From the NCBI GenBank assembly GCA_013215715.1, contig JABSQT010000002.1, forward strand, positions 62,001 to 126,000: a stretch of DNA of 64,000 nucleotides, in the 5' to 3' direction. Position 1 is the first letter of the stretch; the number at the start of each line of letters is the position of its first letter. Positions 3,284 through 6,418 of the stretch are shown piece after piece. The DNA is from Mycoplasmatales bacterium. GTDB taxonomy: Bacteria > Bacillota_I > Bacilli_A > Mycoplasmatales > Metamycoplasmataceae. A program made the position numbers and the translations under genes. The notes under the pieces were generated by a model, which worked only from the letters and a program-made list of their open reading frames with translations, did no database searches and was not told the origin of the DNA.

Positions 3284-3315
3284 AAAAAAACCTATTTCTC
3301 TTTGAGGATTAGGTT
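3284..3315 (-). terminator. aspS terminator overlapping its last codons
   Basis: The minus strand can form an AACCTA/TAGGTT stem containing an inner CTC-AAA-GAG hairpin, followed by seven T. The stop codon of aspS lies inside the structure. The T-run leads straight into the -10 box of the downstream membrane gene. Confidence 0.7.
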
Positions 3316-4989
3316 ATATTCTTCTAACTGTTCTTTTGTAATATCGGATGGTGATTGAGACATTGGATCTATTCCTTTTGCATTTTTAGGGAATGCAATA
3401 ACTTCTCTAATTGATTCTTCACCAACTAAAATGGTTGCTAGCCTATCAATTCCGAATGCAATACCGCCATGTGGAGGTAATCCATATTTGAATGCCTCTA
3501 AAAAGAATCCGAATTGTGCTTCTGCTATATCCTGAGACATACCAATAGCAGAAAACATCCTCTTCTGCGTTTCAGGGTTATTGATTCTAATTGAACCTCC
3601 ACCAATTTCAAAACCATTTAGTACCAAATCATAAGCTTTTGCTCTAGCTTCTAAAGGTTTTGTATCGAAAAAATTAAGTGTTTCATCAGTAGGACTAGTA
3701 AATGGATGATGTGCTGCAATATATCTTTTTGATTCTTCATTGTATTCAAACATCGGTCAATTTACAATTCAAGTAAATTTAAATCCATCACTTGCTAATT
3801 TAAACATTTTATTTAATTCAACACGAACAGCACCAAGTGCTTGAATTGCATTTTCATATTTATCAGCTACAAATAATAACGTACCTATATTTCAATTGAA
3901 TTCTTTTGAAATAGTTTCTATTTCAGTTTCAAAAAACTTATACCCAGGACCAGTTTTTATTTCTCCATCATAACTAGCTCATGCAAGTCCTTTAGCTTTA
4001 TTCTTTTTAGCTACTTCTTCTAATTTTTTAATTTGTTTCTTAGAAAGAACTTGATCAAAAGCAATCATTTTAATTGTTGAAGCAGTTTTAAATGCATTAA
4101 AACTTGTTTGTTTAAATATTTTTGTAACTTCATTAAGCTTATATTCATATCTTAAATCAGGTTTATCGCAACCATATAAATCCATTGCTACATCATATTC
4201 CATTATAGGGAATTCTAATTTATCTTTAATTCCTAATTTTTTGAATACTTCAATATACATACCTTCTATCAATTCCATTATATCTTCTTGTGTAGTAAAG
4301 GACATTTCCATATCTAATTGTGTGAATTCAGGTTGTCTATCAGCTCTTAAATCTTCATCCCTAAAACATCTAGCTACTTGAAAATATTTTTCAATGCCAG
4401 ATGCCATTAATAATTGTTTATATAATTGTGGTGATTGAGGTAAGGCAAAAAATTTACCATGTGTTCTTGTCGGAACTAAATAATCACGTGCTCCCTCAGG
4501 AGTTGATTTTGATAAGTAAGGTGTTTCAACTTCCAAGAAATCTTTTTCGTCAAGATAATCTCTTACAGCTTTGATTAATTTGTGTCTTAAAATTAAATTT
4601 CGTGTCATTTTTGTTCTTCTAAGATCCATAAATCTATGTTTTAACCTATTTTCTTCTTTAATTTCAATATCATCACGAATTACAAAAGGTGGAACTTCTG
4701 AAGTAGCAAGAACTTTTAAGTTTTTTGCTACAACTTCAATTTCTCCAGTAGGTATCTCTGAATTAACATTTTTCCTTATTGTGACTTCACCTGTAACTTC
4801 AATCACAGATTCCTTCGTTGCTTCTTTTGGTGTTTCACCTTCAAAAACTATTTGCGTAATACCTCATCTATCTCTTAAATCTATAAAAGTTAGAGAACCC
4901 ATTTTACGTCTATTTGCTATTCACCCTTTTAAAGTAACTATTTCTCCTACATTTATTTTCCTTAATTGTCCGTTGTTTATTTTTTTCAT
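3292..4989 (-). CDS. aspS: Aspartyl-tRNA synthetase
   Basis: This class IIb synthetase (565 residues) activates aspartate and charges tRNA-Asp. An N-terminal OB-fold anticodon-binding region is followed by the catalytic core: motif 2 reads FRDEDLRADRQPEFTQLD and motif 3 GIAFGIDRLATIL. A bacterial insertion domain lies between them, so the length is normal. Several in-frame TGA codons encode Trp. The ATG at 4989 overlaps the hisS stop by one base (TAATG), so translation is coupled and both genes depend on the T-box promoter upstream of hisS. A terminator overlaps its end. Whether the enzyme is strictly tRNA-Asp specific cannot be told. Confidence 0.98.
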
Positions 4990-6251
4990 TATTGCTCCAT
5001 TCTTTCATCTAGATAATCAATAATTTCCATAATATCTACAGAATCTTGATTACCATTTTCTTGGTTTTTAATAACCACTTCACCTTGTTTTAATTCATTT
5101 TTACCAAAAATGATAACAAATTTTGCTCCAACAGATTTTGATTTATCAAATGCTTTATTTAATTTCATGGGTAATAAGTTATATTCAACACTAAATCCAG
5201 CAGTTCTCAACATATATGTTAATGAACTTGTTGCTATTGTTGTATCATCATCCATATTAACAACAAAAACATCAACAGTTGGTTTAATCTCATTATGAAT
5301 CATTTCTACTTCATTTACTAATCTTTCAACTCCCAATCCAAATCCTATACCTGAAATTGAAGGTCCGCCAAATTGTTCAACAAGATTATCATATCTTCCT
5401 CCACCAATGATGGTTGACTGAGAACCTGCTGCTTCAGAATCAGAAACAAACTCAAATATTGTTTCTGAATAATAATCTAATCCTCTTACCAATTTGTCTG
5501 AAACTTCATACGGAATCATTACTCCATCTAATAATTTTTTAACTTTTTCAAAATACTGTTTTGATTCTTTTGAATAAAACTCACTTATTTTTGGTGCATT
5601 TTTAACAAATTCTTTCTGACCATCAATCTTATCATCTAAAATTCTTAATGGATTCTTCTCTAATCTACTAATTGACAATTCCGTTAATTCTTCTTTATAA
5701 TTCTCAAAATATTCTCTTAATGCTTTTGAATAATTATTTCTTGTATTAGAGTCCCCTATTGAATTAATTAATAATTTAACTTTCTTAATTTTTAAAGTCA
5801 TAAGCATTTGGTAAGCCATCATAATCGCTTCTGCATCAGCAGCAGGAGATTTTGCACCAATTAATTCAATACCAAATTGAGTAAATTGTCTTTGTCTACC
5901 TTTTTGAGGTCTTTCATATCTAAATATAGGTCCATTATAAAATAATTTAGTTGGTTGAGATTGTGCATACATTTTATTTTCAACATAAGCCCTAATTGTT
6001 CCAGCAGTTCCCTCTGGCCTTAAAACAAATTCCCTTCCTTTTTTATCATTAAATTCATACATTTCTTTTGCAACAATATCAGAAGTCTCTCCAACAGATC
6101 TTTTAAATAAATCAATTGACTCAAAAATAGGTGTTTCTATTTCTTTAAAATTGTAAAATGATGCAATACCTTCTAGTGTTTTTAAAACAAGTGTTCTATA
6201 CTCTTGTCTTTGTCCATATATATCTTTTGTTCCTTTTGGTCTTTTAAACAT
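4989..6251 (-). CDS. hisS: Histidyl-tRNA synthetase
   Basis: This is a class IIa synthetase of 420 residues. Motif 2 (FRYERPQKGRQRQFTQFG), the histidine signature GGGRYDNL and motif 3 (GIGFGLGVERL) are all present, followed by a C-terminal anticodon-binding domain. I chose the ATG at 6251 because GAGGT lies at the right distance upstream and the family begins with a short MFKRPKGTKD-like segment. An open frame continues 19 codons further upstream, but it runs through the T-box terminator and is not coding. The gene is first in a hisS-aspS operon. Expression is expected to rise when the cognate tRNA is uncharged. Confidence 0.98.
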   Translation of the reverse strand: MFKRPKGTKDIYGQRQEYRTLVLKTLEGIASFYNFKEIETPIFESIDLFKRSVGETSDIVAKEMYEFNDKKGREFVLRPEGTAGTIRAYVENKMYAQSQPTKLFYNGPIFRYERPQKGRQRQFTQFGIELIGAKSPAADAEAIMMAYQMLMTLKIKKVKLLINSIGDSNTRNNYSKALREYFENYKEELTELSISRLEKNPLRILDDKIDGQKEFVKNAPKISEFYSKESKQYFEKVKKLLDGVMIPYEVSDKLVRGLDYYSETIFEFVSDSEAAGSQSTIIGGGRYDNLVEQFGGPSISGIGFGLGVERLVNEVEMIHNEIKPTVDVFVVNMDDDTTIATSSLTYMLRTAGFSVEYNLLPMKLNKAFDKSKSVGAKFVIIFGKNELKQGEVVIKNQENGNQDSVDIMEIIDYLDERMEQ

Positions 6252-6277: not shown

Positions 6278-6405
6278 AAAAAGTCCTACATGAGGGCCAA
6301 CGTGCCACCCCATGAACGGACTCTTAAGTCGTTAACGCTGACTTTGCGGTAGAGTTACCTACTGTCTCGGAGATGCCTAACCTCTTCAATGACGTATCTA
6401 TTTAT
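6278..6405 (-). promoter_or_regulatory. T-box leader of hisS-aspS with very short stem I
   Basis: The T-box core GGGTGGCACG lies at 6301-6310 on the minus strand. An antiterminator can form from CAUGGGG and CCCUCAUG around the UGGC bulge. The competing terminator (AGUCC/GGACU, 6278-6325) ends in UUUUU. The promoter -10 is TATAAT at 6410-6415, directly after the secDF terminator, so the leader cannot extend further upstream. The only candidate stem I is about 30 nt long (GUC/GAC base, GAG/CUC helix, nine-base loop 6373-6381 containing CAU). Two further small hairpins follow. The T-box identification is firm; the assignment of stem I and specifier is inference. Confidence 0.88.
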
Positions 6406-6418
6406 AAATATTATATAA

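Follow-up and report, generated by a model that had tools for sequence, protein, structure and literature searches.

The actinobacterial ileS leader is an example of a translational T-box with an ultrashort Stem I. Elements with an ultrashort Stem I have been assigned to translational control (Sherwood et al. 2015, reviewed in PMC7583486). According to the same review, T-boxes that act on transcription as a rule depend on the distal part of Stem I, which speeds the capture of tRNA before the polymerase arrives at the terminator, and the tRNA elbow-binding module is essential to them (PMC7583486). In Mollicutes, an earlier survey counted no more than two T-box elements (PMC2494555). Here we analysed a window of 64,000 nt from a mollicute that is close to Mycoplasma todarodis and reads TGA as Trp. 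On the minus strand of the window, the end of secDF is followed by a terminator, a TATAAT element, a leader of ~125 nt (~6402-6278), hisS and aspS (table below). Comparison with related genomes suggests, with a probability of roughly 0.7, that this leader is a transcription-terminating T-box of the hisS-aspS operon that has lost Stem I beyond the specifier loop and senses uncharged tRNA-Asp.

The leader resembles the class I transcriptional T-boxes (RF00230; Bacilli hisS) in its K-turn, putative specifier followed by A, IIA/B-type pseudoknot and UGGN, and in the U-tailed terminator preceding an aminoacyl-tRNA synthetase operon. The canonical hisS leaders of Bacilli precede the same gene and mostly have the GAC/UGGC pair kept by its clade relatives. 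Unlike class I elements, leaders of the window type have neither a distal Stem I nor a Stem III, keep little of Stem II and are without helix A2, and their terminator 5' arm is usually upstream of the T-box. The reduced Stem I and the loss of the elbow-binding module are features of the ultrashort translational T-boxes. However, those act on translation, whereas the hisS leader ends in an intrinsic terminator and has no evident Stem II with an S-turn, and the elements of its clade serve Asp, Ala, Gly and Met. Sequestration of the ribosome site, as expected of translational control, was not found in the hisS leader, where a hairpin is followed by a U-run instead. No earlier description of such a set of T-boxes was found in the open literature searched, the scope of which was open rather than subscription journals.

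Table. Features of the hisS-aspS leader and its surroundings, in window coordinates.
Feature	Position	Strand	Basis or remark
secDF terminator hairpin	6440-6426	-	terminator scan
-10 element TATAAT	6410..6415	-	read from sequence; expected transcription start near 6402
Ultrashort Stem I	6364..6393	-	descriptor and shuffles, strand-swap test, homologues
Stem I C-stem GUC/GAC	6393-6391/6366-6364	-	
Stem I K-turn	6390-6388; 6387-6386 with 6368-6367	-	AUU bulge; GA with GA
Stem I 4-bp helix GAGG/UCUC	6384-6381/6373-6370	-	
Stem I hairpin loop UUAGGCA	6380-6374	-	holds specifier
Specifier register GGC, then A6374	6375..6377	-	loop comparison, tRNA matching; GAC-A in relatives
Small hairpin GUAG/CUAC	6349..6362	-	present in G000-G002 leaders
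IIA/B-type pseudoknot	6326..6348	-	read by eye; F-box consensus from Rfam alignments
Pseudoknot S1 CGC/GCG	6348-6346/6338-6336	-	
Pseudoknot S2 AAGUC/GACUU	6344-6340/6330-6326	-	
Intrinsic terminator AAGAGUCC/GGACUUUU	6278..6325	-	fold energy and arm-pairing comparison
Terminator 5' arm AAGAGUCC	6318..6325	-	may double as antiterminator strand, UCC 6320-6318 with GGG 6310-6308
Terminator upper helix, CAUGGGG/CCUCAUG region	6314-6308/6295-6289	-	
T-box UGGC	6304..6307	-	complementary to G73-CCA of tRNA-Asp
Terminator U-run	6282-6278	-	
hisS	4989..6251	-	420 codons, code 4; start 6251; from translation
aspS	3292..4989	-	begins at hisS stop; low end from code-11 ORF list

Stem I of the hisS leader is 30 nt long. 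The preliminary description had placed its base at 6367-6393, with a nine-base loop containing CAU. The small stem is real but its extent is 6393-6364; the nine-base loop forms under an alternative GAG/CUC closure, and the main form has the 7-nt loop. Folded as a single sequence, Stem I is unremarkable (z -0.59), so the case for it is comparative. An identical order of elements (C-stem, 3-nt bulge, GA, helix, 7-13-nt loop, helix, GA, C-stem) was found in the hisS leaders and in leaders before alaS, glyS and trmN6-metG, where the helices covary. Each loop carries a codon followed by A, namely GAC for hisS-aspS, GCA for alaS, GGA for glyS and AUG for trmN6-metG; the alaS leader of G012 appears to read GCU. 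An exhaustive descriptor recovered the compact Stem I in 19 of 22 leaders, missing those of M. marinum hisS, G009 glyS and G008 glyS. In 18 of the 19 the descriptor score was reached by 0-12 of 200 dinucleotide shuffles (5/200 for the window hisS leader alone, 0-2/200 for most hisS and alaS homologues); the G000 metG leader was non-significant (67/200). The chosen helices pair in 144/144 cases within sequences compared to 64-65% after strands were swapped between sequences, a figure that is descriptive since the strands had been picked for pairing. Within the source genus, helix changes compensate each other (GAGG/UCUC versus AAGA/UCUU). At the level of sequence, comparison thus establishes the compact architecture, its covarying helices and the cognate codons of the sister leaders, and all four kinds of leader look like transcriptional T-boxes with an ultrashort Stem I. 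The homologues, sister operons and covarying helices lend good support to the ultrashort T-box first proposed in the preliminary description.

To detect such elements, an Infernal-type check with the standard T-box model, RF00230, was of no help: the hisS leader was below the gathering score, and no match was reported there in the window up to E 10. We trained a covariance model on the hisS leaders of G008, G009, G020 and G021 and four alaS leaders. The hisS leaders of the source genus (G000-G002) were left out because a MAFFT alignment of all hisS leaders misplaced their Stem I. The window leader, thus outside the training set, scored 49.7 bits (E 4.6e-7), and the model also picked up the hisS leader of a new genus, G012 (73.8 bits), and the trmN6-metG leaders. 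The T-box core of the model is common to all T-boxes of the clade, so the score alone is no proof of a short Stem I. Of the 298 genomes in the order, only five had matches, and in two of these five the sole match was of the ileS type. At higher sensitivity, a run on 32 relatives gave matches in 6 genomes, with eight elements in the source genome. The same T-box motif was found by a pattern scan of named genomes in Mycoplasma todarodis, M. marinum and Candidatus Mycoplasma mahonii. With at most one mismatch allowed, a variant core, GGTGGNACGTTGGCC, was present in 8 of 58 relatives, with seven copies in the source genome, and the reversed control pattern gave zero matches. Other mollicute families of the order were compared via a different motif, GGATGGNACC. 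RF00230 favours a long Stem I, so the class-wide search with this model says little about ultrashort forms elsewhere.

Several further elements were observed. The pattern scan of named genomes also gave matches in an actinomycete and in a planctomycete MAG. An RF00230 match (L085/L163) and a motif match (L127) had no T-box anatomy and are probably chance. An ultrashort Met T-box precedes trmN6 in L182, L146, L139 and L181, with metG next in the operon in the first three. The pheS leaders L147, L187 and L183 have UUC in a loop of ~25-28 nt and a Stem I that is longer but reduced; these are possible evolutionary intermediates. The G008 glyS leader (L134) has UGGG in place of UGGA and a poor K-turn. 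The window itself also contains, on the minus strand, an ileS T-box with a long Stem I (34890-34704) that scored 57 bits with RF00230 against a gathering score of 93, and which standard annotation would therefore miss. A lysine riboswitch (56114-55952, minus strand, 68 bits) precedes a 495-codon gene resembling those of amino-acid permeases, and an FMN riboswitch (53346-53236, minus strand, 99 bits) is followed by a gene for a membrane protein resembling a riboflavin transporter.

To assign the tRNA ligand, we compared specifiers and T-boxes with the tRNAs of the source genome. Among 28 distinct tRNAs, the discriminators are G73 for Asp, C73 for His, A73 for Ala, U73 for Gly and A73 for Met, and the T-box sequences of the leaders (Asp UGGC, Ala UGGU, Gly UGGA, Met UGGU) all agree with their cognate discriminators. 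The proposed pairing of UGGC with G73 of tRNA-Asp is borne out by this inspection, and the suggestion of a His tRNA with an unusual discriminator is rejected, as tRNA-His (GUG) has C73. The canonical Bacilli hisS leaders, whose Stem I is long, show GAC-A in the specifier loop and mostly UGGC, in some cases UGGU, and the hisS leaders of other marine clade members keep GAC-A and UGGC. This indicates an Asp T-box as the ancestor of the element and, judged from these leaders, aspartate as its ancestral specificity. In GAC-bearing leaders, CAC arises solely from the last base of GAC and the A and C after it. The mixed His/Asp signal reported earlier is thus mostly explained by Asp ancestry, apart from the GGC with CAU/CAC seen in the source genus. 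There alone has GAC become GGC, which overlaps CAU/CAC (CAU at 6375-6373 in the window leader). Consequently, the loop has no perfectly matching tRNA, and whereas the sister leaders match with GAC, GCA, GGA and AUG, tRNA-Asp reads GGC with one central G-U pair. tRNA-Ser GCU likewise makes one G-U pair with the loop and has G73. T-boxes prefer strict Watson-Crick pairing (PMC7778990). A weakened Asp reading is the likeliest in the source genus.

An unlikely alternative, although one with some weight, is that the same architecture senses tRNA-His, or both tRNAs, through CAU/CAC. Two species have CAU and M. marinum has CAC, both His codons, hisS is the first gene of the operon, and the pairing of GGC with tRNA-Asp is imperfect. 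Furthermore, TBDB disregards the discriminator in the case of His, given that an internal pair can engage C73 (PMC7778990). However, UGGC mismatches C73, and with the 7-nt loop the last base of CAU falls inside the helix, whereas nearly all sister leaders have the specifier and its A before the helix. The ancestral and sister state, GAC with UGGC, also argues for tRNA-Asp.

Between Stem I and the T-box, the small GUAG/CUAC hairpin of the source genus may be a remnant of Stem II. The pseudoknot that follows contains an F-box-like GCGUUA, and its S2 varies on both strands across homologues (AAUC/GGUU, AUCU/AGAU, CUC/GAG; by eye). No evident pseudoknot was found in the glyS leaders or in the G012 hisS leader. 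The terminator is stable (-21.8 kcal/mol, z -3.2 for 6333-6278) and holds the T-box in its apical loop. The preliminary description had considered antiterminator and terminator to be normal. In contrast, helix A2 is nearly gone, the terminator 5' arm is upstream of the T-box, and the leader shows no antiterminator of the canonical A1/A2 type, the GGG/CCC helix being in the terminator. Comparison indicates that this nesting is a property of the clade: in 32 of 34 clade T-boxes the arm beside the U-run has its best pairing partner 5' of the T-box, compared to 2 of 13 canonical Bacilli hisS leaders, the other 11 pairing downstream. Most leaders in other mollicute families of the order show the canonical terminator form.

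In 40/40 clade leaders, base-pairing is possible between the region of the terminator 5' arm and the purines immediately before UGGN. Overall, this pairing exceeds that of composition shuffles, with a mean p of 0.17 for the clade and 0.74 for canonical controls, values to which sequence relatedness and terminator composition may contribute, and for the window leader alone the antiterminator hairpin was non-significant (p 0.40, from the G001 copy, identical in this stretch). Pairing of the 5' arm with GGG is the likeliest antiterminator. Alternatively, the AAGAG purines could dock beside the bound tRNA end, by analogy with docking reported for a purine motif around Stem III (PMC7778990). A long-range GUUAACG/CGUUGGC antiterminator, good in the window leader, was rejected since by inspection it is lost in homologues.

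For tRNA binding and the switching step we infer the following, with tRNA-Asp as the ligand in the source genus. Uncharged tRNA-Asp would be gripped at two points, by its anticodon on the specifier in the hairpin loop and by its G73-CCA end on UGGC. The K-turn would set the anticodon/specifier contact at an angle and the pseudoknot would act as a spacer between the two grips. A tRNA with a free CCA end would keep the 5' arm (AGUCC) unavailable, most likely by its pairing with the GGG just 5' of UGGC, so that transcription continues. With charged tRNA, GGG would pair with the downstream CCC and AGUCC with GGACUUUU, and transcription would stop.

It is improbable that the T-box has instead degenerated, leaving a Stem I in decay and a leader that acts constitutively as a partial terminator. 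The loss of GAC in the source genus, genome reduction and the weak C-stem of the M. marinum hisS leader would fit such decay. However, the compensatory helix changes inside the source genus and the conservation of the pseudoknot and of UGGC argue against it, as do the compact versions found intact, with their cognate codons, in three other operons.

The genomic setting bears on the 5' end of the leader. The preliminary description had the coordinates and strand of the leader right, and correctly bounded its 5' end by the secDF terminator and promoter and assigned both synthetases to the operon. The positions of the terminator and TATAAT leave little room 5' of the small stem. A promoter scan of the leader region found no sigma-70 -35/-10 pair above threshold, and TATAAT is equally placed in homologous hisS leaders. 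These are present in eight genomes (G000, G001, G002, G008, G009, G020, G021 and G012), directly before hisS in the first seven, with secDF reading frames immediately 5' in those inspected; the G001 leader is 91% identical to that of the window. Of 119 family genomes, 118 have a homologue of hisS itself. In G008, G009, G020 and G021, only TATAAT separates the secDF end from the leader, which speaks against a longer Stem I. A conventional Stem I encoded further upstream, within or before the secDF terminator, is thus very improbable, given the terminator and -10 element immediately 5' of the leader and the abutting secDF coding end in these four genomes.

Collectively, the leaders raise the possibility, which we put forward tentatively, that marine mollicutes rebuilt the whole T-box into transcriptional sensors of ~100-130 nt that dispense with elbow contact, Stem III, A2 and, for the most part, Stem II. 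The GGG/CCC antiterminator helix beside UGGN would now be part of the terminator, and the 5' arm with GGG would form the antiterminator. RF00230 misses or underscores such elements in mollicutes. Terminator-type T-boxes without a distal Stem I, with at least four specificities and in some cases without an evident pseudoknot, would mark the least that tRNA sensing requires, and such a compact T-box family would offer a small, testable system.
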